The notes under the pieces: generated by a model
The model's database searches: none
Told to the model about the DNA's origin: nothing
What the model saw: only the letters and a program-made list of their open reading frames with translations
Shown here: positions 49,397 through 64,000 of the stretch, piece by piece
Layout: each line of letters starts with the position of its first letter
Numbering within the stretch: the first letter of the stretch is position 1
Position numbers and translations under genes: made by a program
From: Halolamina sp. CBA1230
Lineage (GTDB): Archaea; Halobacteriota; Halobacteria; Halobacteriales; Haloferacaceae
Assembly (NCBI RefSeq): GCF_002025255.2
Contig: NZ_CP054587.1
Location: 868,001-932,000 of the forward strand
Direction of reading: 5' to 3'
DNA: 64,000 nucleotides

Positions 49397-50452
49397 ATGA
49401 CTCGGGTCCTCCATACAGCTGATGTCCATCTGACGCCGGACTATCCGGAACGGAAGGATGGGCTTCGAAAGTTGCTCAATCGAGCTGAAACAGGCGATAT
49501 CGACGTTGTGACGATCGGTGGGGACTTGTTCGACCAGCCGGAGGGCATGGAGCAACTCCGGACTGACTTGCGCAACGACCTCTTTACTGACCGGTCATTC
49601 GAAATCGTCCTCATTCCTGGCAACCACGACCTCGAAGCATACCGTGGGGACGTGTTTTTCGGCGACGCATGTACTGTCATCACGGAGGAACCGTTCAGTC
49701 ACTGGACTGCACCGGAGGAGGATCTCCGGATTACGGCTCTCCCCTATAGAGAACACCCGGATGACGAACTCCTCCTCAAACTGCAAGACAGAACATCGTT
49801 TGACGGGCATGAAGCCCTGCTTCTTCACTGTAGTCTTGACGCGCCGTTCGACGACTACGAGACAGGTGACGAAACGGCGAGGCGATACTTTCCCGTGACT
49901 GAAGATCTCCTCTCCGAACTGGAGTTCAATTCGTATCTCGCTGGGCACTATCACAGCCCGCACAAAGTCTCGTTTACGGGCGGTTCGGAGTTCACCTACC
50001 CTGGCACGCCGGTTTCGACAAGTCGCTCAGAGACTGGGCAGCGCCGGGTGAGTATCCTCAACCCGGAGACCGGGATTGAGTTTGAGACGCTGGACACCTA
50101 CCATTACGCTTCACGTGAGTTTACGGTGACACCTGGTGATGAAGACACGCTCCTCAACAAGGTTCGTGAGTGGTCGAACCAGCATGCGATTGCCAGTGCG
50201 GATGCGTCGGTGCACGTCGATGGCTTCGTCGAAATGGCGGAAGACGCGTTCAACGACGAGTTGCGTGCAGCAGCGGTCCCGGCGTCAGTGACAGATGCAA
50301 CTCGGAACGTCGAACACGTCCTCTCCCACCCGTTGTTCAGATCGTTCCAAGCAGAACTTGCCGACACGGACTGGGACGAGGAGACAACCGAGAACGTGAC
50401 AAAGCGGACGCTCGAAGTGTTCAGTCAACTGTCGGCCCGGGGGGAGATCTGA
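49397..50452 (+). CDS. Mre11/SbcD/YhaO-like metallophosphoesterase
   Basis: This 351-residue calcineurin-type nuclease has all the metal motifs: TADVHL (D9, H11), GGDLFD, IPGNHD, LLHCS and GHYHSPH. Enzymes of this kind degrade DNA ends with Mn2+ and pair with SMC-like ATPases. The stop directly adjoins the next ATG (TGA-ATG), so this gene and the ATPase gene form a tight operon. The ATG at 49397 is preferred over a TTG 15 bp upstream because the family pattern starts there. It is shorter than chromosomal archaeal Mre11, which fits a YhaO-like paralogue rather than the housekeeping copy. Confidence 0.9.
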   Translation: MTRVLHTADVHLTPDYPERKDGLRKLLNRAETGDIDVVTIGGDLFDQPEGMEQLRTDLRNDLFTDRSFEIVLIPGNHDLEAYRGDVFFGDACTVITEEPFSHWTAPEEDLRITALPYREHPDDELLLKLQDRTSFDGHEALLLHCSLDAPFDDYETGDETARRYFPVTEDLLSELEFNSYLAGHYHSPHKVSFTGGSEFTYPGTPVSTSRSETGQRRVSILNPETGIEFETLDTYHYASREFTVTPGDEDTLLNKVREWSNQHAIASADASVHVDGFVEMAEDAFNDELRAAAVPASVTDATRNVEHVLSHPLFRSFQAELADTDWDEETTENVTKRTLEVFSQLSARGEI

Positions 50453-52774
50453 ATGCGGCTCACTACTGCAGAGGTTGATCGGTACGGGCCGCTGTACGAC
50501 TGTCGGCCGCCCTGTCAAGACGGCATTACCGTTCTCTCAGGATCAAACGAGGCGGGAAAGACACTCTTCCTCGAAGCCGTACTGCAACTGCTTGAACCAG
50601 AAGTGTCGGGCGTCATGAATCCCGGCCCTCGCGTCAGTGACTCACCAACGGGACGAGTCGTTGTTGAAAATGGCGGCGACCAGTACGAATGCGACGGCAC
50701 GACGTCGCTGAGCGATATTTCCCCGATCGAACCGCGGCATTTGCAGAGCGTGTTCGTCGTCCAAGACAACGACCTGGCACTCCCGAGCGACCAGGAGTAC
50801 TACACGTCGCTCATCGAGAAGCTCGGTGATATCCACACGACCGAAATCAATGCCATCCAGTCGGAACTGAAAGATCGCGGGCGGCTCACCGACACACGAC
50901 TCAACATCTCCAGTGATCAGTCCTACAACAACGCCGGCGATGTCCACGAGAAGGCAGGTACGCTCGCCGAGGAGATCCGTGACTACACGGAGCAAATCAA
51001 GGCTGAAGGGTTAGACGAGTTGGAGACGCGTCGCCTCCGCCTCAAGCGAGAGCTACAGAAGGTCCGTGAGGGCCTTCAAGAACAGCAGGAAGCGAAGACG
51101 GTCGCGGAATATGAACGTCTCTCGAATCGGCTTGCGACGTACCGGTCTACGAGTGACCGACTCGCTGACGTCGAAGGGTTCGACCGTGAGACGTTGACCG
51201 AACTCCGCGAACTGCAGAACGACATCGAGCGTGATCGGGATGAGCTGCAGAGCCTCACGGCCGACATCGACGCGAAACGTGAAGAGGTCGCGGAGGCAGA
51301 GCAGGCGCTGGAGGACCTCGAATCACGGGAGGCAAAACTATCACGGCGAGAATCAGCGGTAGCTGAGACGCAGTCTGCGCTGGAAACGTATCGTGACCGG
51401 CAGCGTGACGCCGCCGGCGCGCAACGGCGACTCACATTAGCGAAATACACAACAGTTGCAGGCTTGCTTGCGGCCGGCGGTACAGGTGTCGCAGGCGCGA
51501 TTGCAGGTTCGACCGCTGCCCTTGGACTGGGCGCTGTCCTCCTAGTTACTGGGGTTGTGAGTGCGTTCCTCTACCAGCAGTCGAACGAGCGCCTCACCGC
51601 TGTCGAGGCGGCACGTGAGTCTGCCGTCCAAACCGCGAGGGATGCTGGGTTCAATGTTGAAACAGTCGAAGACATCGCTCCAGCGATCGAATCCTTCGAG
51701 AACGAGTTATCGCAGGTTCGAGACCGTGTCGCTCGGAAAGACCAGCAACGTCAGGATGCCGAACAAGAACTTGAGGAACTTCAGGGAGAGAAATCCGAGT
51801 TAGAATCGGAGATTACTGGGCAGGAACAGCGGTTTGACGAGCTATTGGCGGAGGCTGACGTTGAATCGATCGACGAGTACGAAGCCAACGTCAAGGAACG
51901 AGACGACCTGGAACCAGAACGTCGCACGGCGCGCCAGAGTCTCGTCGATCGGTTCGGTGAACCTGACGCAGATGAGCCAGCTGCGAAAGCTACAGAGTGG
52001 GAGCGAGATTTGGAAGCGTTGGTCGATGACGTCGAGGTAGACGAGATCGATGTCGAGGAGTATGACGAAGGTACCTTGGAGGAATACGAGGCCGAGGTTG
52101 ACCGGCTGGAAACCAAGCTTGACGAGCTCGAAACGCAGCTCACTGACCACGACAACACGTTAGATACGTTCGATCAGCGAGCCCGGAATCTCAATACCCA
52201 GCCGTTCGTCGGCCACAGTCTCGGATTAGCATCCCGTTCCAGGGAAGGTCTGGAAACGCTTGCGTCCGATCTTGATGCTGTTGTTGATCAGATTGAGGAA
52301 GATGCAGAGGTGTCACGGAAGGCGCTGAAGATCTTCAACCGGATCGAAGCGCAGGAGGAGCAGAAATTAACGGATTTATTCGACCCTGACGGGCCGGCCT
52401 CTCAAACGTTTGAGCAAGTGACAGGAGGCCGCTATACTGAAGTTGCGTATGATGCCGAAACGCACGACCTCGTCGTTGAGCGGGAAGACGGGCGCACCCT
52501 TTCGCCGGATACGCTGAGTCAGGGGACCAAAGACCAGTTGTACTTCGCTACACGCGTGTCGCTTGCTCAGCAACTCCTTGGGAACGAATCTGGGTTCCTC
52601 TTGCTCGACGATCCGTTCCTTGCAGCGGATCCAGACCGTCTGCGAAAAGGCTTTGAGACACTCCAAGCACTATCTGATGACGGCTGGCAGATTCTCTACC
52701 TCACCGCGAAACAGGAAGTGACCGAAACGATGGTCGATGAGTACGATTTGGCTCACACCCAATTCACCTCTTAA
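50453..52774 (+). CDS. SMC/Rad50-like ATPase with membrane-type hairpin (YhaN-like)
   Basis: This 773-residue ATPase has Walker A GSNEAGKT near residue 28, a long coiled coil, ABC signature LSQGT with Walker B FLLLDDPF near residue 720, and a second coiled-coil arm. In the middle of the coil (about residues 333-372) lie two adjacent hydrophobic segments (VAGLLAAGGTGVAGAIAG and LGAVLLVTGVVSAFLY) instead of the CxxC zinc hook of Rad50/SbcC. That arrangement is seen in YhaN-type proteins. With the phosphoesterase upstream it should form a DNA-end-processing complex, probably at the membrane. It is followed by a 30-residue frame and Argonaute on the same strand. Confidence 0.88.
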   Translation: MRLTTAEVDRYGPLYDCRPPCQDGITVLSGSNEAGKTLFLEAVLQLLEPEVSGVMNPGPRVSDSPTGRVVVENGGDQYECDGTTSLSDISPIEPRHLQSVFVVQDNDLALPSDQEYYTSLIEKLGDIHTTEINAIQSELKDRGRLTDTRLNISSDQSYNNAGDVHEKAGTLAEEIRDYTEQIKAEGLDELETRRLRLKRELQKVREGLQEQQEAKTVAEYERLSNRLATYRSTSDRLADVEGFDRETLTELRELQNDIERDRDELQSLTADIDAKREEVAEAEQALEDLESREAKLSRRESAVAETQSALETYRDRQRDAAGAQRRLTLAKYTTVAGLLAAGGTGVAGAIAGSTAALGLGAVLLVTGVVSAFLYQQSNERLTAVEAARESAVQTARDAGFNVETVEDIAPAIESFENELSQVRDRVARKDQQRQDAEQELEELQGEKSELESEITGQEQRFDELLAEADVESIDEYEANVKERDDLEPERRTARQSLVDRFGEPDADEPAAKATEWERDLEALVDDVEVDEIDVEEYDEGTLEEYEAEVDRLETKLDELETQLTDHDNTLDTFDQRARNLNTQPFVGHSLGLASRSREGLETLASDLDAVVDQIEEDAEVSRKALKIFNRIEAQEEQKLTDLFDPDGPASQTFEQVTGGRYTEVAYDAETHDLVVEREDGRTLSPDTLSQGTKDQLYFATRVSLAQQLLGNESGFLLLDDPFLAADPDRLRKGFETLQALSDDGWQILYLTAKQEVTETMVDEYDLAHTQFTS

Positions 52775-52867
52775 ATGGTGAAACGGGTTCTTGGGTTCAG
52801 ATGTCTCTCTAGTTCCATAAATGTAAGTCCCGAAAATACTTCACCGAGAGACATCACCTACCTCTGA
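52775..52867 (+). CDS. Possible 30-residue coupling ORF before Argonaute
   Basis: An ATG directly follows the YhaN-like stop (TAA-ATG). It opens a frame of 30 codons that ends in TGATG, overlapping the Argonaute ATG by one base. It could pass ribosomes from the ATPase gene to Argonaute. The peptide has no recognisable homology, so it may instead be a leader with no product. Confidence 0.35.
   Translation: MVKRVLGFRCLSSSINVSPENTSPRDITYL
52800..52855. promoter_or_regulatory. Inverted repeat in the spacer upstream of Argonaute
   Basis: GATGTCTCTC (52800-52809) and GAGAGACATC (52846-52855) are a perfect 10-bp inverted repeat with a 36-bp spacer, ending 11 bp before the Argonaute ATG. It could be an operator or an mRNA hairpin that hides or exposes the start. 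Confidence 0.5.
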
Positions 52868-55110
52868 TGGCCTCGGATACTCCGACGATGCAGAAAAACT
52901 GGAGAGCCCTAACCGACCCGGGAGTATACTTATTTCATGTTGAGGGGCGTCCCCGTCTTCAGGAAGTTTCCGTAAACCGCTATCGCTTGTCAGTGGAAGG
53001 TGGACTTGATCGGCAGCAGGATAGGCACGCATTCACTCAATCTGCTGCATACTGGCTGGACCAAGAGCACGGTACACCAGTTGGTGGATCTGGTGAGATG
53101 CACGTGATCTCTATGACGGAACTCTCTCGAACGGTCACAGCAAAAGATCACGAAGTCACGCCTGAGAAGGTCGGTGAGAGAACCCTTTCACCGAGCGATC
53201 CTGGGGAACGAGCGCAAATCAAGGGTCTCATCCAATCCTCACTTCGGCGCGCAATCCCGGATTCACGGTACTCTTTCCAGTTCCTTGACGAGGTCGTTCG
53301 ACGGGACATCGAGTTTGGCGGTGGGGAATCTGACTTCGGTGCTCGACGGAAGCACAGTCTGAAGATTCACATTACTGCCGATGGTGTCGTTTTACTCCAA
53401 GTGAGAGTTGGGTATAGTCTCGCCACCATGTCGTCACTTGACGAGATGGTTACAGCGGGGAAGGAGCTCCCCTCATGGCGAGTCGAACATAACTCGGAGG
53501 TGTACAGTAACTCGGGGACGGGACAGCTTGCAGGCTGGAGTGACCTGCACTATAATGACTGGTCTGATTCTCTCGGTGAAGTCATTTCCGAGTATCAGGA
53601 AGGGGTGATGAAGGAGGAAGTCAGAAAGGAATTGATCGAACAAAACCCCCGACTTGTTGAGGTTGACTATGGAGGGTTTACTGGCGATCAAGCCCCGCGT
53701 GCGCTCACGCTAAGCCCCCGGACAGAGCAAGTGAAAGAGCAGGATTGGGACTTCCACGACCAATTCACAACGCGTAGGGCAATGGAGCCTGACGAACGGT
53801 TCGAACTTGTCGCTGACTTCGTTGATGACTTAGCGACGCTTCCGGGGTTGGACATTGACTTTGAATCGAGCCCATCGAACTACGGGTTCGAGTATGTGAA
53901 TATGCGGGAAGGCCAGTCCAGACTCATCTATGGTGATGGGAATCACGCATCCAAGCCGAGTACCGGACTCAAGCGACATGGCGTGTACAGTCCACCCGGG
54001 GAGTACCGTGTCGGCGTCTTGTATCCAAGTGACTTTGAAGAGATACATCAGGATCTAATCGGGCTCATCGCAAAGACGCTCGCACAGTGGGAAGCACCGG
54101 CGGGAACATCCGGGTACAGTTACGAACTTGGGAGTCTTTCAGAGTATGGCGATATCTATCAGCAGTTGCGAGACGATACGGACGTCGTTGTCGCACTGGT
54201 TCCTGACAAAGGTGCTGCAGATGATTTCCCGGGCGTCGAAGACCCCTACGACGAGCTCAAACGGACGCTGATGCGGAAAAACATCCCCACGCAGATGCTG
54301 CAGAAATCGACCGCCCAAAGGGTCATCAACATGTCTCGAAAGGGGGCGAGCGATGAACTTGTAAACACCCTGAGTGCGGTTGTTGCGAAGGCAGGCGGGA
54401 CACCCTGGCAGATTGACGAGCTGCCGGGGGAGACTCAGGCCTTCATGGGATTAGACGTGACGAGGGACCAAGAGACCGGCCAACACTCCGGCGCAAGTGC
54501 GAGCATTGTGATGCGGGACGGTTCAACGTTCGCTGCAGAGTCCACGACACAACAGGCCGGCGAAAAATTCGTTTCCGACCAAGTCGCCAAATTCGTCAGG
54601 GATCTCGTGTTTGACTTCGCTGACGAACGTGATGAACCACTTGAACGTTTGACAGTCTTCAGAGATGGGAAAGTGCATGAGGACATAGAGGCCGTTAGAG
54701 AGGGCCTTGACGCTTTAGATGCTGAAATAGACATTGTCGGCGTCCGTAAACGCGGTCAGTCCCGCGTCGCAGAGTTCGATGGGCGGGAGTTCCGTATCGC
54801 GGACAAAGGTATTGGATTCGTAGATTCGGACCGCGACCAGGCCATCGTTCATGCCTTTGGAAAGCCAGAAATCGACGACGACAATCACGTTGGCACCCCA
54901 CGTACGTTCCGCTTAGTCAAAGACTCTGGACCCACAGACATCGAAACCCTCGCTCGCCAGTCGTTCTGGCTATCTGAGGTCCATTATGGAAGCCCCGCAA
55001 GAAGTACTCGCCTTCCCGTACCGATCAAGTACGCTGATGCCGCTGCGAAATACGTGAGCGACGGCTATATTGATCCGGGTCGTGTCATTCGTGGTCCCGC
55101 GTATCTATAG
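52867..55110 (+). CDS. ago: Prokaryotic Argonaute (long-type, DEDD tetrad)
   Basis: This 747-residue Argonaute would bind a short guide and cut complementary nucleic acid. The C-terminal PIWI domain carries all four candidate catalytic residues: D530 (FMGLDV), E566 (QQAGEKF), D600 (VFRDGK) and D724 (KYADAAAKY), at spacings close to those of active bacterial enzymes. A MID-type segment RKNIPTQML...AKAGGTPW (about residues 470-522) precedes it. The N-terminal half is divergent, as usual in pAgos. It follows a Mre11/YhaN-like pair and is convergent with AddAB-like genes. The ATG at 52867 overlaps a short upstream frame; a later Met at residue 10 is possible. Confidence 0.93.
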   Translation: MASDTPTMQKNWRALTDPGVYLFHVEGRPRLQEVSVNRYRLSVEGGLDRQQDRHAFTQSAAYWLDQEHGTPVGGSGEMHVISMTELSRTVTAKDHEVTPEKVGERTLSPSDPGERAQIKGLIQSSLRRAIPDSRYSFQFLDEVVRRDIEFGGGESDFGARRKHSLKIHITADGVVLLQVRVGYSLATMSSLDEMVTAGKELPSWRVEHNSEVYSNSGTGQLAGWSDLHYNDWSDSLGEVISEYQEGVMKEEVRKELIEQNPRLVEVDYGGFTGDQAPRALTLSPRTEQVKEQDWDFHDQFTTRRAMEPDERFELVADFVDDLATLPGLDIDFESSPSNYGFEYVNMREGQSRLIYGDGNHASKPSTGLKRHGVYSPPGEYRVGVLYPSDFEEIHQDLIGLIAKTLAQWEAPAGTSGYSYELGSLSEYGDIYQQLRDDTDVVVALVPDKGAADDFPGVEDPYDELKRTLMRKNIPTQMLQKSTAQRVINMSRKGASDELVNTLSAVVAKAGGTPWQIDELPGETQAFMGLDVTRDQETGQHSGASASIVMRDGSTFAAESTTQQAGEKFVSDQVAKFVRDLVFDFADERDEPLERLTVFRDGKVHEDIEAVREGLDALDAEIDIVGVRKRGQSRVAEFDGREFRIADKGIGFVDSDRDQAIVHAFGKPEIDDDNHVGTPRTFRLVKDSGPTDIETLARQSFWLSEVHYGSPARSTRLPVPIKYADAAAKYVSDGYIDPGRVIRGPAYL

Positions 55111-55202: not shown

Positions 55203-58200
55203 TTATCGTCCCACCCGTACCGATGTTTGGTCCAGTTGTTCCTGCAGGAGTTGAACTGTGTCTTCGAGTGCGTGTGTGAATTCCGGGGCTTCCCACGTGT
55301 ACGTGTCTTCCACGTCGGTGAAGTACAGCGTGGCAGTCACGTCTCTCGTGGGATCTTGTTGATTGAGCGCGGCAGCGTATGCTTGCAGTTGTGGCTGATG
55401 GTGGGTGGCTCGGTCGGTGAGGAACTCCTCGGTAGTCTGGGTTGACGCTTTCCGATCAGTCTTGTAGTCGATGACGTGGTACGTGTCTGGAGTAACGACG
55501 AGGTGGTCGATGAACCCACTGACAGTACCGTTGCCGAGGGTGAGTTCGATGTAGTATTCGTCGTGGATTTGCTGAACGTTGAGCGTGCTGTGGAGTGTGT
55601 TGAGGTACTGAATCGCGGCGTCAGCGGCTGTTTCGATGGCGTCGAATGCTGAGTCGGGGTAGGTTGATTCAGTGAGTCCCGGTGTGCGGTCGTGTTGTTC
55701 TTGGATCGCTTGTTCGATGACGCGGCGGCGCTCGTCACGTGGTGGGCGGGTTTCGCAGAGTCGGTGGACAGCGTGGCCGTAGATGGCTGCGGGGATGTTT
55801 CGCGTGTCTGTGTCGGGGTAGTCGTGCTCGTGTTCCTCGCTCGATTCGTTCGTCACCGGGCTCGCCGTGACTTGGTTCGTATCGTCGTGTTCGTGGAGTT
55901 CAACCGTGCCGGCGGGGATGCGGGTGAGATCTGATGCGGAGAGAGTGAACTCCCATGGCTGCTCGTACGTGTACGGTGAACGTTCCGTCGTTGCCGGGAC
56001 TGGATCAGGATCAGGGTCGTATTGTGCATCGTCTGGTGGGAGGCGAACGTCGAGAGTGCCTCGGCCGGTGTCGCCGTCGATCTCATACGGGAGTGTCACG
56101 GTGAATGACCCGTTTGCTTCGAGAGTATCCCACCAGCCAGCTGTATCAGTATCTGTGTTGAACAGCGCGGGTTGGATCCAGTCAATGGGGCTGGACGGGT
56201 CGTCAGGGTCAGGTTGTTCGATCCCGGTGTCGTGATCGCCGTCAGCGTTGTGCCGACCGGTCAGGATGAGGTGGTCTTCGGCGCGGGTGGCAGCGACGTA
56301 GAGGATACGTTTCTCTTCGGCGTGTTCTTCGGCGCGGCGACGGTCACGGGCGACGCGTCGCATGAGGGTCGCGTCAGTGTCGGTACGGTCGTCCGTAGAG
56401 ACGTTGAGACCGAGAAGTGGGCGGCGCTCGCCGGCGATCGGGACGCGTTCGTACTCGATACTGCCGTTGCTGATACGTGCCCTATCGTTGAACCCCTTCC
56501 CGAGCCCAGGCATGGCGACGACAGGGAATTCCTGGCCTTTCGCTTCGTGAACGGTCATGATGCGAACCCCGGTCGAATCGGTTGCGTCGTTTGCTTCGGG
56601 TTCTTTCCGGCCTTGTTCGGCTTGATCGGCGAGTCGTGTGGTGACGCGGTCGATGCTGGGGACGCCGTTGGCGTCGAATTCGCGGAGTTTGTCTCGGAGC
56701 TTGTCGATGTTGGCGAGAGCAGTAGTGCCGCGTTCGTCGGCGGCGATCGCGGCGAGGTACCCGGTTTCTTCGAGGATCCGGTCAGCGAGTGCGACCCAGC
56801 TCTCGACGGTTGCGCCGGGTGTGTTCCCGGTGCCGGCGTACTCGCGCCAGCGTTCGATGTCCTCGACGACGGATTCGACAGCAGGATCAGTACTGGTCTG
56901 CAGGGAGTTCCATAGCGTATCGTCGGTGTCGTGGGCGGTGGCGAGCTGCGTGTCGGTTAGGCCGCACAGCGGGGAGCGTGCGGCGGCGTACAGTGCGATG
57001 TCGTCGGTGGGGTCAGCGAGTGCGTTCAACAGCGCGATGAACGGCCGGATTTCTGGCGTGTCGAAGAACCCTTCGCCTTTGATGACGGTGTACGGGATGT
57101 CCGCTGCGCGAAGACCGCGTTCGTAGTCTTTGAGGTCGCTTCGAGAACGGATGAGCACGGCGATATCCTCGGGTTGGACGGGCCGGGTATCGGTGTCTGA
57201 TTCTGGGTCGTCGTCGGTGACGAGGGTGTTGTCGGTGAGGAGAGCGGCGATGCGGTTGGCGAGGGCGGTTGCCTCGATGTCGGCGGGTTCGGACTCGGGG
57301 AGATCGGTGAGGCCGTGGTCTGTGTCGAGGTAGCGGTCGCGGAGGTCGGTTTCGACGGGGACAGGGAGGTATTCGGTGATCGGAGAAAGGTCGGTAGGCG
57401 TGTCGCGCCCGGCGGTGAGCGGGCCGCTGACGGCTTCGTACGGTTCGTCGTTACCGTACGCGAATACGTGGTCGAAGAGCCCGTTGATGGCTTGCAGCGT
57501 CTCCGGAAGTGTGCGGAAGTTCGTAGTCAGTTCCGGGTTACGGGGATTCGTTCCGTTTGCGGTGTTCGCGTCGTGCATCGCGGTCGTGGCGTCGTCGAAG
57601 ATGGTGACGTCGGCGTCGCGGAAGCGGTAGATGCTTTGTTTGACGTCGCCGACGACGCACACGTTGTCAGCGGTGAACGGGTCAGTACCGCTCGTGAGCG
57701 CTTGGACGAGTTGCCACTGGCGCGTGTTCGTGTCTTGGAACTCGTCAACCATGATGTACAACAGGTCCTCGCGGAGGTCGGCAACAGCATCTTGGTCGGG
57801 GTCGGTGAGGAACGTAAGCGTGTGGCCGATCAGGTCGTTGTAGTCAAGGACGCCGCGCTGGTGCTTCCGGTCGTTGTACTCGGTGAGCGCCGCTTCGGCG
57901 AGATCGGCAAGCGCAGTGAGGAGTTCATGGGCATCGCGGTCCGGATCGAGTGAGGCGTCCGTTGGTCGCGTCGCAGGTGCGAGCGTATCAAGAACGCTAT
58001 CCATTGCGTCGCGGAACCGCGTGGCTGTCGGGCCATCGCTCTGTCTGAAAGATTTGTTCCCGTAGTAGGTGCCGTCCCCGTACCGGTCGCCGTCGCTGTT
58101 CGTCAGCGTGTCACAGAGGCTGCGGAACAGTTCGAGTTGCTCGATCGGCGTTGCGTCCGCGATGTCCTGCCTAGATGTTGCTTCGACGAAAGCAAGTACG

Positions 58201-59063
58201 TCGTTCCCGACGCGTTTCGTCGGATTCGTTCCGAGACGGTCAGCGACATCGTCATCGCTGTACAGTTCACACAACGTGTCGAGGTCATCACGTACCGTTT
58301 CCAGCAAGTGTGCGGGGTCGGCGTCCAGTGGGTGCAGTTCGACAAGGTGTGCTTCGTACGCTTCTTGACTTTCGAGGTCGCGTATCTCGTCGATCCACTC
58401 GCTGGTCATGTCGGACTCGGCGATCAGTTCGGCCAGCACGTCAACGAGCTTCGACCGGTCAAACTGCGGGGCGAGGACGCGCACGCCGGGCGGTTCGGAC
58501 TCGACGAGTTCGGTAGCGACGGTGGTTCGGAGTCGTGCGGCGTCGGTGTCTTCCAGTACTTCGAAGTCCGGGTCTACCGCTGGGTGCGTGACGGCGTACT
58601 CTTCGAGGATACGGCTGCAGAACCCGTGCGTGGTGTCGATGTACCCGGCTTCGACGCCGTCGGCGGCGGCGCGCCAAACGGCCCACCGGTCGGGGTCGTC
58701 AATATCGTCGAGTCGGTCATGGATCTTCTCGCGGATCGATCGTGCGAGGTCTTCGGCCGCCCGGTCGGTGAACGTGGTGACGACGATACGCTCCGGGAGT
58801 CGCCGGGCGGCTTCAGGGTCGGTAATCCGGTCGATATCGTCCGGTAAGCAGTAGCCCGGTTCGTCGTCAGCCGCGGTGAGGCTGTCCGGACCGTCGAGAT
58901 GCGCGCGGAGGATCGTAAGGTACCGCTCGGTGAGCATCGTCGTCTTCCCGGTTCCGGCTCCAGCTTCGACGGAGACGTTCCGGTCAATCGTCCGGGCGGC
59001 GCGTTGCTGGGCGCGGGTGAGCGTGATGTCGTCGTTCGAGGCTGTGTCCATTTGGTCGGTCAT
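55203..59063 (-). CDS. AddA-like UvrD helicase - PD-(D/E)XK nuclease
   Basis: This 1286-residue protein is a superfamily 1 helicase with Walker A EAGAGTGKTT (33-42), Walker B IMVDEFQDTN near 436, the usual UvrD motifs IV-VI in the C-terminal half (VRIMTVHEAKGQEFP, ILYVAATRAED), and a C-terminal nuclease HVIDYKTDRK near residue 1198. It processes double-strand ends. Its ATG overlaps the stop of the partner gene in ATGA, so the two subunits are co-translated. It ends 93 bp from the Argonaute stop, convergently. Upstream in-frame codons would overlap the partner deeply, so 59063 is taken as the start. Confidence 0.92.
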   Translation of the reverse strand: MTDQMDTASNDDITLTRAQQRAARTIDRNVSVEAGAGTGKTTMLTERYLTILRAHLDGPDSLTAADDEPGYCLPDDIDRITDPEAARRLPERIVVTTFTDRAAEDLARSIREKIHDRLDDIDDPDRWAVWRAAADGVEAGYIDTTHGFCSRILEEYAVTHPAVDPDFEVLEDTDAARLRTTVATELVESEPPGVRVLAPQFDRSKLVDVLAELIAESDMTSEWIDEIRDLESQEAYEAHLVELHPLDADPAHLLETVRDDLDTLCELYSDDDVADRLGTNPTKRVGNDVLAFVEATSRQDIADATPIEQLELFRSLCDTLTNSDGDRYGDGTYYGNKSFRQSDGPTATRFRDAMDSVLDTLAPATRPTDASLDPDRDAHELLTALADLAEAALTEYNDRKHQRGVLDYNDLIGHTLTFLTDPDQDAVADLREDLLYIMVDEFQDTNTRQWQLVQALTSGTDPFTADNVCVVGDVKQSIYRFRDADVTIFDDATTAMHDANTANGTNPRNPELTTNFRTLPETLQAINGLFDHVFAYGNDEPYEAVSGPLTAGRDTPTDLSPITEYLPVPVETDLRDRYLDTDHGLTDLPESEPADIEATALANRIAALLTDNTLVTDDDPESDTDTRPVQPEDIAVLIRSRSDLKDYERGLRAADIPYTVIKGEGFFDTPEIRPFIALLNALADPTDDIALYAAARSPLCGLTDTQLATAHDTDDTLWNSLQTSTDPAVESVVEDIERWREYAGTGNTPGATVESWVALADRILEETGYLAAIAADERGTTALANIDKLRDKLREFDANGVPSIDRVTTRLADQAEQGRKEPEANDATDSTGVRIMTVHEAKGQEFPVVAMPGLGKGFNDRARISNGSIEYERVPIAGERRPLLGLNVSTDDRTDTDATLMRRVARDRRRAEEHAEEKRILYVAATRAEDHLILTGRHNADGDHDTGIEQPDPDDPSSPIDWIQPALFNTDTDTAGWWDTLEANGSFTVTLPYEIDGDTGRGTLDVRLPPDDAQYDPDPDPVPATTERSPYTYEQPWEFTLSASDLTRIPAGTVELHEHDDTNQVTASPVTNESSEEHEHDYPDTDTRNIPAAIYGHAVHRLCETRPPRDERRRVIEQAIQEQHDRTPGLTESTYPDSAFDAIETAADAAIQYLNTLHSTLNVQQIHDEYYIELTLGNGTVSGFIDHLVVTPDTYHVIDYKTDRKASTQTTEEFLTDRATHHQPQLQAYAAALNQQDPTRDVTATLYFTDVEDTYTWEAPEFTHALEDTVQLLQEQLDQTSVRVGR

Positions 59064-62000
59064 TGGGTGTCCTCCGTGTCGATGCCGGGTGCGTACTGTG
59101 GCGTGTTCGATTCTGTGAGCGCGTCGTGGATGTCGTGCCGTCGGTGGTGTCGAACGTCGCACGCATCGCGGTACGGGCAGTACTCACAGCCAGCCGTGTC
59201 TGGGCTGAGAACCGTCGGGTGGAACGACCCGTTGTCCACGGCAGCCGCGATCCGGTCAATACGGTCCGGAATGACGTCGTGGAGGAACTCAGTGAACTCG
59301 CCGCGCGTGTCGAACTCCAACGTCTGGTAGCGGCGAAGTGGCGCTGGGTCGTCTGCACCCCAATACGCGTGAGCGGCGTCCTCTTCACTGCCGACCGTGC
59401 CCGCATGTGGTGAGATTGAGTCGGTCGGATCCACTTGGTAGTAGGAGCCTCCGACGGGGTCCCCGTTGAGTGCGTTCTCGGCCATCAACAGGTACGCGGG
59501 CAACTGGAAGGTGTGCCCGTCGATCGTGTCGCTCTCGCTTGCCGTGCTGCCTGTCTTGTAGTCCATGCCCACGATTCCGCCGTCACTGGTAATGTCGAGC
59601 CGGTCGATTTTCCCGCGGATCTGCACGTCCGTTCCAGGGACGCGCACCGGGTCGTCCGCGAGGACCTCGGGGCCGGGCTCGTCAGGAGTGAGGCCAACGT
59701 GCGCTTCGAAGTACGACGGCGTCGCGTCCCGCGGTGCAAGTTCGGCCTCGGAGTGCAGGAATCGTTTGAACAGTCCGGGTGGGCCGTCGGCGTTACCATA
59801 CCTGTTCTCCGGAACGGTGAGCCCATCAAAAAGCGCGGTAACCCACGTGTCGTGGAAGGCAGTGTCTCGTGCGTCGAGTTCGTCAAGCCGGGACGCTGCC
59901 ACTTCGTACAGTACCTCCTCTGCCTCATCAACCGTCTCCTCCGTGACGCCGTCGTGGCCTTCTCCGCGCCACGTGCGGTAGAAGCGTTCGAGAACGTCGT
60001 GGACGTACGTGCCGGCATCAAGCGCGTTCAACTCCAGCGTGATCTCATCGTCCGGTTCGATGTCGAGAACGTATTTGAGGTAGTACTTGAACCCGCAGTC
60101 AGCGTACGTTTCCAGCTGACTCGGGCTGTACGGCTGATCTTCGCCTCGCAGGGCTGTGACGATCCCTGAATCCACGTGCCCGTCGTAGTCGCCGACGTTG
60201 TCGGCCGCTCGTTCGGCGGCGACCGACACGCCGTCTGAGAGGCGTTTCGACGCGTTCGCTCCTGAGATGTTGATGTCGTACGTGTCGGTGTTCCTTGAGA
60301 GCGCGTCAGGCGTGAGTGCGTTCGAGTCAATCGCTGCCGCAAGTTCTCGGTGCACGTCAGTGTACGACGCCGGGGGTGCGCGGTCGTTCACGCTGCTGGC
60401 TTCTAACCCAGTGACACGTTCGAGTTCGACGACAGGGTCAGCGAGGATGTATGGGTCGCCGTTCCGGTTGTGTTGCGGGGCGGTAAGCGTCAGGTCCGCG
60501 TCGGCAGCGATTAGCTGCGCGAACGTGTACCGGGTCCCGGCAACCGGGTTTGATGCCGCGAACTCTGGGTGAGAGTCGTTAAGTGGCCGTGCGAATGCGA
60601 GGCGGCGTGGTGGTGACGGGGTGTGTTCGGTTGTTAGCCCGGGGACGAACACGTACTCGGCAGGGTTGGTGGCCGCCTCCGCCGGCGAACACACTCGAAC
60701 GCTGTCGGACTCCCGACCCACCGATGTTTCGACCGTCACCTGTTCGAGCGCACGCCGCAACTCCTCTACATCTGTGTCCGCGTCGTCTCGATCCGCTGCG
60801 TCCCGACGTTCCGTCAGCGACGAACATACTTCGGCTGCCCTCTCGATGGCCTGTTGTTCCCGTGCGCGGACGTGCCGTGAGAACCCGATGGCGTCGGTGA
60901 GGCCTGCCCCGTTCTCGGTCGTCGGGACGCCGAGTTCCGCAAGCAACGCCTCCCGTTCACTGTCGATATCGGTCGCATTTACGAACTCTTCGCAGGCGGT
61001 CACGACGTCACGGATGAACGCCTCAGTGTCCGCATCGACGTACTCGGCGAGGGTAGAGACGCGCGTGGACTCCAACCGGTCAGCGTTCTGGAGTGCGTTC
61101 CGAACGGTTTCACGGTGGTTGGGGGCGACGAGTGGGTTCGACAGGAGTCGTGTGAGCGGGCCTTGCCGGTCTGGTTCGGTCCCAAGGTTGATTACGGACT
61201 CAAACAGTTTGCCGGTCGTTGTTGCGAACAGCGACCGTGACGAACTGGCCACTACCGGCACGTCCGCAGCTCGAAGCGCGTCTGTGATTCGATTCCCGTA
61301 TGTGCCCTCATCGAACGGTGCGACGGTGATCGAACTCGGATCGACACCGGACCCGATTAACGATCGGACTGTCCGAGCAACGTCACGAATTTCGTCTTGT
61401 ATCGTCGCGTGGGTCTCCAGAGTCACGTCGGACCCGACCTGAACCGGCTCAGCTTGCCCGTCTTCGTGTTCGTACAATGATGCCGCTGCGCGTTCACGCG
61501 GCGATCGTGAACTTGTGCCGTCAGTCTCGTGTGGCGTGAATCCGAGTTCGTCGTACCATCGGCTGATTCGACGGATCGCGTCATCAGCCCCGCTGAGTTC
61601 GTCGGCGTCAGTTACGCGGGTCAGTACGATTCCGGTGTCGAACGCATCGGCGATCAACCCGATAATGTCGCGCTCCTGTGGTGAGAGGGTCTGGAATGAC
61701 CCAACGATCACTACTTCGATCGTTGAGAGCTCGGATTCGACGAGTGGCTGCCCTGCGTCAAGCACATGGCGGAACCGTTCGCTCCGAAACGTCTTCGCAT
61801 CATCAAAGCCGTCCGCACGAACTTGATGAACGAGCGCAACGAATCGGGATAATGATTGCGCGAGCCTAGGGAGCCCTTCTTGGGTCAATCGTTGTTCGAC
61901 TTCCTCCGCAGTGATCGTACCGGCGAACTCCAGGAGCGTGAGGAGTTCTTCAGACTGCTGGATGAGGCCGACAGATGGATCCTCTTCGCTGTACAGGGGG

Positions 62001-62317
62001 TGTTCAGTATCGGTAAGGCGAGAAAGTGCTTCCTCGACGATCCACTGCCGTTCGGCACTGGAAATGTGCGTCGCTGACCCGTCGTAGGTGTCTGCCTCGT
62101 ATAACTCGTCTACTAACGTACGGAATCGTTCGCATCGAAGCTCAATTGGGGAGCCGTAGGTGTCCCACTGGTCAGCGACAATCCCGTCGTTCACGGATGG
62201 CGGTTCAAGATACAGCACAGACTGCGGTACCCCTGAGGAACGTTCGTCGGCCCACTGGAGTATGGCGGCCCGTCCATCTGAGGGAGTAGGTTCCGAGAAC
62301 ACCCGGCGTGTCGTCAT
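59060..62317 (-). CDS. AddB-like nuclease subunit with Fe-S cysteines
   Basis: This 1085-residue protein has a degenerate helicase-like N-terminal region. Its C-terminal PD-(D/E)XK nuclease has GKIDRLDITSDGGIVGMDYKTG motif residues near 900-922. Four cysteines match the AddB/RecB-type 4Fe-4S clasp: one in YADCGFKYY (about residue 740) and three in GCEYCPYRDAC (about 1042-1052). The Fe-S cluster locks the nuclease domain. It starts at the ATG at 62317 (MTTRRVFSE), 30 bp inside an alternative ATG. It is the first gene of the two-gene operon, divergent from the methylase-CBS-HEPN gene. Confidence 0.88.
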   Translation of the reverse strand: MTTRRVFSEPTPSDGRAAILQWADERSSGVPQSVLYLEPPSVNDGIVADQWDTYGSPIELRCERFRTLVDELYEADTYDGSATHISSAERQWIVEEALSRLTDTEHPLYSEEDPSVGLIQQSEELLTLLEFAGTITAEEVEQRLTQEGLPRLAQSLSRFVALVHQVRADGFDDAKTFRSERFRHVLDAGQPLVESELSTIEVVIVGSFQTLSPQERDIIGLIADAFDTGIVLTRVTDADELSGADDAIRRISRWYDELGFTPHETDGTSSRSPRERAAASLYEHEDGQAEPVQVGSDVTLETHATIQDEIRDVARTVRSLIGSGVDPSSITVAPFDEGTYGNRITDALRAADVPVVASSSRSLFATTTGKLFESVINLGTEPDRQGPLTRLLSNPLVAPNHRETVRNALQNADRLESTRVSTLAEYVDADTEAFIRDVVTACEEFVNATDIDSEREALLAELGVPTTENGAGLTDAIGFSRHVRAREQQAIERAAEVCSSLTERRDAADRDDADTDVEELRRALEQVTVETSVGRESDSVRVCSPAEAATNPAEYVFVPGLTTEHTPSPPRRLAFARPLNDSHPEFAASNPVAGTRYTFAQLIAADADLTLTAPQHNRNGDPYILADPVVELERVTGLEASSVNDRAPPASYTDVHRELAAAIDSNALTPDALSRNTDTYDINISGANASKRLSDGVSVAAERAADNVGDYDGHVDSGIVTALRGEDQPYSPSQLETYADCGFKYYLKYVLDIEPDDEITLELNALDAGTYVHDVLERFYRTWRGEGHDGVTEETVDEAEEVLYEVAASRLDELDARDTAFHDTWVTALFDGLTVPENRYGNADGPPGLFKRFLHSEAELAPRDATPSYFEAHVGLTPDEPGPEVLADDPVRVPGTDVQIRGKIDRLDITSDGGIVGMDYKTGSTASESDTIDGHTFQLPAYLLMAENALNGDPVGGSYYQVDPTDSISPHAGTVGSEEDAAHAYWGADDPAPLRRYQTLEFDTRGEFTEFLHDVIPDRIDRIAAAVDNGSFHPTVLSPDTAGCEYCPYRDACDVRHHRRHDIHDALTESNTPQYAPGIDTEDTQ

Positions 62318-62512
62318 TGTGCCATCCTCACGCAACAAACACGTCAAACTTGCGCTGCCGAAAAGACATGTACTGAGTCAGCCGCAGGAAAAGACGGTGA
62401 ACACATCACTGATTTTTCTCGACTGTGCCTATCGGTTGGAACCGCTTGAGATGTTTCTGAATATGGGCAATAGAGCTATCTTTTTTGATCGTGACGAGTC
62501 TCAGGAGCTCTA

Positions 62513-64000
62513 ATGAGCGGCCCTAAAGCGCCGAGTTCAGTCGGGCGGCTCCCGACTGCCGTGGCAGATGAAATGGTTCGGCGGCTGTTCGACGATGGAG
62601 ACCCGGAATCTGATGACCGGATCTTGTTCCCTGGCGTCGGCCACGGGGAACTCGTTGAAGCGGTGGCTCGATACTGTGAACGCCACGAGCTCGATTTCCC
62701 CGAGAGCATCGCCTTGGAGACGAACGAAGAGCTCGTAGAGGAAGCCAGAGAGAAGTTTGACGAATTGCCGCTTGAGGTTCGCCGGCTCGATTTTCTTGGG
62801 AGTCTTCCCGACCTCGGAGAGTTTGAATTCATTGTGAGTGACCCACCGGTAGCGAGGCTGCACGAGCTGTCCCAAGAGGTTCGGGAGGATCTTGCAATGC
62901 GGTTCGATACGATCTCTGCTGACGGACCTGGACGGGATGAGGACTATTATCTCGCGTTCTTCGAGCAGGGGTTAGGGATACTTGCTGCCGAGGGGCGACT
63001 GGTCTTCGCTACCCCTGACTTCACGAGCAAGCAAGGGCACTCCGCAATTCCTGAACTGAAACGGCGGCTCACAACGTTCCACATTGAGGATATTGATGAG
63101 AGTCCCGTCGAGTCACCGTACGATCAAGCGGAACTGGATATCGTGATTACAACGGTCGCCCACGCAGAGCCCGATTCGAAATATGCATCCGAGGTTGATT
63201 TCGAAGGCGTGCAGGAAGCACTGACGGTCACATACGACATCGGCGTTGCGGACATCATGACGCAAGACCCGGTGGCGTTCTACTCAGACGATGATGTCCA
63301 TAGTGTCTACCTGACTCTCGTTCGGAATGACTACGACGCGGCACCGGTTCGAGACCGGGATACCGGGGAATGCCTCGGGCTCGTGTCGAAAGCCGAGCTC
63401 ACTGGCGCTGATACGGGGACGCTTGCGGACGGGTACATCACGGATCTTGACGAGAGTAGGCTCATCTCTGCTACGGCGTCGTTCGATGAACTGCTGACGC
63501 AGTTACGTGAGAAACGGTTTTGCGTGGTAGGGACTGCTGACGATATTCGAGGGATCGTGACGCGGTTCGACCTCAACAGCATGGAAGTGTATTTCCACTT
63601 GTACGCGAAGTTCGCGCAGTTCGAGATCGGGTTGCGAAACGCCATCCGCGACTACGAAATCGACTGGGATGACGCGCTCTTGGAGGCCGGAATCAGCTGG
63701 ACGGATATCAAGCGACGGCGAAAGGAGTACCGGGAGAAATCTGAAGTCGCACAGGATGTTCTCGACACGCTGCTGTTGTCTGACCTGATCAAGATCGTTG
63801 AGAACAGCAGACTCCAAGCGGAGATTGAATTCGACCGGTCGTCCCTCGGCGTTCGACCTTCGGCTATCAACAAGCTGCGTGGGTCCGTTGCTCACTACCA
63901 GCCGCTAATCCATACGATGGACTCGTTATCGTTGCCGAAGCAGCGAACAGCGGAGAATTTCGGCGAGGTTTATGATGCACTGAACGAGAGCCTTCAGGCT
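62513..64000 (+). CDS. N6-methylase-like / CBS pair / HEPN-like fusion, 3' end cut by window
   Basis: The frame is open from the ATG at 62513 to the window end (496 codons visible). The N-terminal part resembles an N6-adenine methylase but is degenerate: ILFPGVGHGE at about residue 37 (motif I) and SDPPV at about 110 (motif IV; NPPY/DPPF expected). A CBS pair follows (VADIMTQDPVAFYSDDDV at about 246, then DLDESRLISATASFDELL to about 350). A helical C-terminal domain follows with R456-GSVA-H461, the Rx4H motif of HEPN nucleases. A GGAGC ribosome-site-like stretch precedes the start by about 10 bp. The 195-bp upstream region is divergent from the AddAB operon. I do not know this combination as a named system. 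Confidence 0.8.
   Translation, partial: MSGPKAPSSVGRLPTAVADEMVRRLFDDGDPESDDRILFPGVGHGELVEAVARYCERHELDFPESIALETNEELVEEAREKFDELPLEVRRLDFLGSLPDLGEFEFIVSDPPVARLHELSQEVREDLAMRFDTISADGPGRDEDYYLAFFEQGLGILAAEGRLVFATPDFTSKQGHSAIPELKRRLTTFHIEDIDESPVESPYDQAELDIVITTVAHAEPDSKYASEVDFEGVQEALTVTYDIGVADIMTQDPVAFYSDDDVHSVYLTLVRNDYDAAPVRDRDTGECLGLVSKAELTGADTGTLADGYITDLDESRLISATASFDELLTQLREKRFCVVGTADDIRGIVTRFDLNSMEVYFHLYAKFAQFEIGLRNAIRDYEIDWDDALLEAGISWTDIKRRRKEYREKSEVAQDVLDTLLLSDLIKIVENSRLQAEIEFDRSSLGVRPSAINKLRGSVAHYQPLIHTMDSLSLPKQRTAENFGEVYDALNESLQA

Follow-up and report, generated by a model that had tools for sequence, protein, structure and literature searches.

A recurrent haloarchaeal fusion of a degenerate N6-adenine methylase, a CBS pair and a HEPN-like domain, a candidate one-protein antivirus effector

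The forward-strand stretch of 64,000 nucleotides analyzed here from Halolamina sp. CBA1230 (hereafter the window; G000:C1:868001-932000) ends in a single open reading frame in which a methylase fold, a pair of CBS domains and a possible RNase domain appear to be joined. A first-pass annotation, made from the sequence alone, regarded these modules as not normally combined. The locus therefore raises the question of whether such a fusion is a genuine and recurrent architecture and, if so, what a methylase with a weakened catalytic motif may do in the same chain as a putative RNase.

Domain layout of the fusion protein

The reading frame opens at position 62513 and runs without a stop codon to the end of the window, which holds 496 of its 503 amino acids. 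As the first-pass annotation had expected, the gene continues further, and since the stop lies 24 bases beyond the window, the continuation amounts to seven codons and the stop; in the whole genome the gene (G000:C1:930513-932024) is complete at 503 amino acids. Its features within the window are as follows.

62513..64000, + strand: whole open reading frame in the window (496/503 aa)
62546..63178, + strand: gamma-class N6-adenine methylase fold, catalytically degenerate and without a target-recognition domain (residues 12-222; AlphaFold2 model, structure matches)
62624..62653, + strand: AdoMet-binding motif I, LFPGVGHGEL, with GxGxG kept (residues 38-47)
62837..62851, + strand: degenerate motif IV, SDPPV, replacing GNPPY (residues 109-113)
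63230..63580, + strand: CBS domain pair (residues 240-356; Pfam CBS, model)
63581..64000, + strand: HEPN-like helical domain (residues 357-496, with 7 more past the window; models, Csm6/HepT matches, NF053863)
63623..63637, + strand: HEPN Ex3R motif, E371-R375 (family alignment)
63878..63895, + strand: HEPN Rx4H motif, R456-GSVA-H461 (RGSVAH, residues 456-461; family alignment)

An AlphaFold2 model of the 496 residues, built on seven sequences (pLDDT 75, pTM 0.50), consists of a Rossmann methylase domain (residues 15-217), the CBS pair and a C-terminal helical domain. Pfam recognized the CBS repeats at residues 245-298 and about 320-355 (E 4.4e-11, 43.4 bits vs a gathering score of 24), matched the Eco57I methylase below threshold (E 3.3e-4) and gave no match to the C-terminus of the window protein. 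With the methylase identified by structure and the DS-11 antiphage profile NF053863 extending across the CBS and HEPN parts, all three modules had been rightly named at first reading, and the methylase-CBS-HEPN architecture is well supported.

The C-terminal domain requires more caution. HEPN RNase motifs have been defined as Rx4-6H and Ex3[KR] (PMC3710099); Rx4H is invariant in 7/7 aligned fusions and present in the other copies covering that region, and Ex3R is invariant in the family alignment. The residue following the arginine of Rx4H is G457 in the window protein vs N or D in the other fusions, this position in HEPN domains being usually polar (N, D or H). Modeled alone, the domain forms a helical bundle (pLDDT 75, pTM 0.70) whose PDB matches are weak (Z up to 5.5, Foldseek E 0.76), and most of the eight best entries are Csm6 or HepT, including Thermus thermophilus Csm6 (Z 5.5), Staphylococcus epidermidis Csm6 and several HepT toxins. 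A sequence search of the HEPN part against the PDB returned chance matches only. Among the sister CBS-HEPN proteins, Pfam identified HEPN_RiboL-PSP in 9 of 14 (best E 0.0013), and the remaining matches were to HEPN_Swt1, HEPN_Apea, HEPN_MAE_28990 or Abi_2. The first-pass claim of a HEPN-like domain with Rx4H, placed at residues 360-465, is thus backed by the motifs, the Pfam matches of sister proteins and the identity of the structural neighbors, the last at low fold similarity; a HEPN domain is likely, if not proven. The refuting outcome named in that annotation, absence of a HEPN fold in this region or of a methylase fold at the N-terminus, was not observed.

Recurrence and origin of the fusion

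The same domain order, which the first-pass annotation had proposed to seek in other haloarchaea, was found in eight other genera, at 27-34% pairwise identity to the window protein. The searches covered 391 Halobacteria genomes, 392 genomes of the order with a profile, plasmids and GTDB contigs, and yielded eight full-length copies and one split copy in nine haloarchaea of nine genera. The full-length carriers are the window organism, Natronomonas sp. LN261, Halobellus clavatus, Halomarina rubra, Haladaptatus sp. QDMS2 (on a plasmid), Halorubellus salinus, Halarchaeum acidiphilum and Natrinema thermotolerans (on a plasmid), and the copy of Halorubrum distributum, split over two contig ends, was excluded from the intact count. 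In the contig scan, a single-protein query returned 0 loci and an alignment query returned six. Many methylase-only and many CBS-HEPN-only proteins were returned by the same searches, and a search of 295 genomes sampled from the phylum returned no full-length fusion from outside Halobacteria.

The idea that these modules are not normally combined stands in so far as no description of a methylase-CBS-HEPN fusion, or of an inactive methylase in phage defence, was found in open-licence PMC papers, but the window protein is not unique, given its eight counterparts. The CBS-HEPN combination in general has already been described, and the 2013 survey of HEPN domains gave endonucleases, helicases and other ATPases, but no methylases, as the fusion partners of HEPN domains linked to restriction-modification, with occasional methylase fusions recorded in its table for the DUF86 branch (PMC3710099).

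The N-terminal half is closest, at up to 41% identity, to haloarchaeal TaqI-like N6-adenine methylases of ~455 aa (e.g., L040, L009), which have the fold and the AdoMet motifs in common with the fusion but possess NPPY and a C-terminal target-recognition half, neither of which the fusion has. The C-terminal half is closest to stand-alone haloarchaeal CBS-HEPN proteins of ~260-300 aa (e.g., L028, L029, L032; 26-33% identity, with LRNDVAH), which have no methylase domain and form a clade apart from the fusions.

The fusion is distributed sporadically, on plasmids as well as chromosomes, and its GC3 is below that of neighboring genes by 0.1 or more at 6/8 loci. In the tree of each half the eight fusions form one clade (support 100/97 and 97/91). 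In both trees the window protein diverges first, followed by the Natronomonas protein; long branches were flagged by the tree program. Because both halves give one well-supported fusion clade, a single fusion event followed by co-inheritance of both halves appears likely and is the simplest account of these sequences. A viral origin was also considered and rejected, as neither phage records nor IMG/VR yielded a match to the fusion. Separately, a CBS-HEPN-only relative with RNDIAH and a weak NF053863 match is present on a phage-like IMG/VR contig (L142:5917-6777, + strand).

The methylase half and its possible roles

The N-terminal fold is strongly that of a methylase, residues 4-222 superposing on M.BseCI, CamA and M.TaqI with Z 19-20 over 181-209 residues, and the degenerate motif IV (SDPPV) seen by the first-pass annotation proved to be part of a general loss. 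NPPY or NPPF is present in 33/33 methylase-only relatives and in 0/9 fusions, whose variants are SDPPV, SNPPT, ANPPS, CDPPK, CSPTH, CHPPQ and SYPPT, with V, T, S, K, H, Q or T at position 113 in place of the motif IV aromatic. When columns with 90% or more conservation among 28 active enzymes were compared with the eight fusions, the catalytic or neighboring columns N110, Y113, F143, D144 and L145 were wholly or mostly lost, N110 being replaced in most fusions and F143 and L145 gone from all, and the fold-core columns L38, F104, P111, L119, L154, L157 and G161 were retained. Two residues are fusion-specific, A128 in 8/8 and W116 in 7/8 (L in the window protein). According to Pfam and the model, the target-recognition domain is absent and CBS-HEPN occupies its place. 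In PADLOC, residues 18-195 of the window protein matched mad2 of the MADS system (E 2.5e-14; profile positions 276-426 of 492, the methylase core) and type II methylases, and a full-length mad2 match was not found.

In the single close pair available, the Natrinema and Halarchaeum copies, dN/dS was 0.20 for the methylase part, 0.12 for CBS and 0.33 for HEPN, which, for this one pair, indicates purifying selection on the methylase part. Taken together, the loss of motif IV in 9/9 fusions, the retained fold core and the dN/dS of 0.20 argue that the methylase domain is, as judged from sequence, a maintained pseudo-enzyme that would no longer methylate. The domain order shared with eight other genera, the invariant Rx4H and the loss of NPPY in all copies indicate that the fusion did not arise by chance, and a pseudogene or chance fusion was rejected in view of the intact reading frame in eight genera, the congruent clades and the dN/dS of about 0.2 in that pair. 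It is very improbable that the domain has stayed enzymatically active despite its altered motif, modifying DNA, RNA or protein under the control of an attached CBS-HEPN part; the kept fold and the AdoMet motif I of the window protein would agree with such an activity, yet the motif IV aromatic is replaced in every fusion and the other catalytic columns have decayed as described above.

A domain that no longer methylates may still bind its cofactor. Motif I is intact in 5/8 fusions, including the window protein, which also retains the acidic motif II residue and D93, and CBS domains of other proteins bind adenosyl compounds, AdoMet in some. The surviving pocket residues make cofactor sensing possible instead of a role as bait: either the degenerate methylase or the CBS pair would read the AdoMet/AdoHcy pool, and a pool shifted by infection would unleash the RNase. 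We consider this rather unlikely, since the Halobellus, Haladaptatus and Halorubellus fusions have lost both motif I and the acidic residue of motif II, so that AdoMet binding is not a property common to the methylase domains of the family, which argues against obligatory AdoMet sensing by that domain.

Alternatively, the dead methylase might bind DNA and tether the RNase to viral DNA or to transcription sites, its fold being that of DNA-binding DNA methylases. Several observations make this targeting role improbable: the missing target-recognition domain speaks against sequence-specific DNA binding; F143, D144, K124 and R141, fully or almost fully conserved among active relatives, have for the most part disappeared; and by net charge the domain is not more positive than its active relatives.

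Defence neighborhood and proposed mechanism

Restriction, DISARM, BREX or Argonaute-type genes are present at 8/9 fusion loci (a count of fusion loci alone), the case at the split Halorubrum locus consisting solely of a 401-aa neighbor shared with Natrinema and Halarchaeum; no defence genes were found near the Halobellus fusion. At the window locus, the fusion gene is divergent from an AddAB-like pair, an Argonaute and an SbcCD-like pair lie upstream, as listed below, and a Schlafen-AlbA protein and a serine recombinase follow downstream.

59060..62347, - strand: PD-(D/E)XK nuclease, AddB-like, the divergent neighbor (a homologue also adjoins the Haladaptatus fusion)
55203..59162, - strand: UvrD helicase with C-terminal PD-(D/E)XK, AddA-like, partner of the 59060..62347 gene
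52867-55107, + strand: prokaryotic Argonaute (Piwi domain E 2.5e-18)
49397-52771: SbcCD-like pair, upstream of the Argonaute in the same defence-rich region

In Haladaptatus, the same AddAB-like helicase-nuclease pair adjoins the fusion between BREX-5 PglZ and DISARM DrmA/DrmB/DrmC. Other flanking genes encode GmrSD in Natronomonas, a McrBC-like pair in Halorubellus, a Mrr-like nuclease in Halarchaeum and a gene product annotated as a restriction endonuclease in Natrinema. At the Halomarina and Halorubellus loci, DrmA and the same 1144-aa protein are encoded divergently from the fusion. This protein, located between DrmA and the fusion gene, had no Pfam or PADLOC match, and its three closest homologues in 384 genomes (L087:14101-17535, L035:6207-9686 and L037:11356-14796) all adjoin the fusion gene, in Haladaptatus, Halomarina and Halorubellus; it may belong to a haloarchaeal variant of DISARM as a component not described before.

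Some smaller neighbors were also observed. In Halomarina and Halorubellus, the gene immediately after the fusion, on its strand, encodes an HhH-GPD DNA glycosylase that may act on modified viral bases (54% identical; L035:11477-12085, + strand, and L037:8928-9572, - strand). A 94-aa open reading frame (L002:7386-7670, + strand) begins about 360 bases past one fusion gene, and its homologue (52% identical; L033:13197-13460) is found about 2.4 kb downstream of the Natronomonas fusion. Near the Halarchaeum fusion, a 466-aa protein with RNNLVH and no Pfam match (L092:13018-14418, + strand) is possibly another HEPN protein.

These surroundings bear on whether the fusion serves in defence at all. 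CBS-HEPN proteins have been proposed as regulators of RNA stability (PMC3710099), and some stand-alone relatives are located among metabolic genes, which would suit an RNA-binding or RNA-processing protein that answers the energy state of the cell. With defence genes at nearly all fusion loci, a sporadic distribution and long branches, a non-defence regulator of this kind seems highly doubtful. The recurrence of the fusion in eight other genera, usually beside antivirus genes, gives it instead the look of an antivirus sensor-killer.

DS-11 is an experimentally tested anti-phage system of one CBS-HEPN protein, whose defence requires both CBS Y157, a contact to the adenine ligand, and the HEPN catalytic residues (PMC13092281). 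NF053863 (DS11_antiphage, NCBIfam) aligns to residues 201-464 of the window protein at 1.6e-8 with 34 bits, and to the other fusions with 36 bits or less, far under its cut-off of 260 bits. We thus regard the CBS-HEPN half, on this profile evidence, as a distant relative of DS-11, in which the CBS pair likewise precedes HEPN in a single protein; DS-11 is without the degenerate-methylase N-terminus, and the fusion is haloarchaeal. DS-11-like CBS-HEPN proteins with Rx4H followed by F also exist in haloarchaea (L130 to L141), scoring about 77-119 bits to NF053863, well under the cut-off, and form a clade separate from the fusions. Csm6/Csx1 similarly couple a nucleotide-sensor domain with HEPN, and Csm6 is the top structural neighbor of the fusion C-terminus, but they employ a CARF sensor and cyclic oligoadenylate and are CRISPR-linked, whereas the fusion has CBS and no CRISPR link was seen. 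A further parallel is PrrC, a HEPN anticodon nuclease that guards a restriction-modification system, restrained by a methylase-containing complex and freed when phage T4 disarms that complex with Stp (PMC3710099). The logic we propose to be shared is that of a HEPN RNase checked by a methylase-containing partner and released when a virus disarms restriction; PrrC/EcoprrI comprises an ABC NTPase and a separate, active restriction-modification complex, whereas the fusion would unite a dead methylase and a CBS switch in one chain.

On balance, we favor, with modest confidence, the reading that the fusion is a one-protein antivirus effector of the abortive-infection type, with the dead methylase as recognition or bait module, the CBS pair as switch and HEPN as RNase; we infer its RNase activity, antiviral function, ligand and trigger. 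The CBS pair would dimerize the protein and, through its binding of an adenine nucleotide or an adenosyl compound, act as the gate of the RNase, and the methylase domain would have been retained as a recognition or bait surface. Infection, through a viral anti-methylase protein (e.g., a DNA-mimic anti-restriction protein) or viral DNA, would alter the state of the methylase domain, and the altered domain would release the HEPN RNase. In function, such a protein would correspond to the PrrC/EcoprrI guard, though in a single chain and with a CBS-HEPN core like that of DS-11. The first-pass suggestion of a sensor that detects DNA or nucleotide state and then cuts RNA fits this scheme, because the CBS-HEPN half resembles a system that needs both CBS and HEPN residues for defence, with sensing and RNA cutting in the fusion still predicted by analogy. 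An obligate guard of a cognate active methylase was rejected: Natronomonas and Halobellus (365-aa form) have active-enzyme relatives, and their absence from the window genome indicates that guarding one in the same genome is not obligatory. More tentatively, the fusions might constitute an immune guard of a new class: a DNA methylase deprived of catalysis and target recognition would act as a decoy that draws viral anti-restriction or methylase-binding factors, and a nucleotide-gated CBS switch in the same chain would connect it to a HEPN RNase.

If this reading is true, a recurrent, single-origin fusion to a dead methylase would extend to methylases the idea of pseudo-enzymes as immune sensors. 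It would also provide a compact archaeal system, open to testing, that might reveal what triggers a CBS-gated HEPN RNase, which DS-11 has yet to show.
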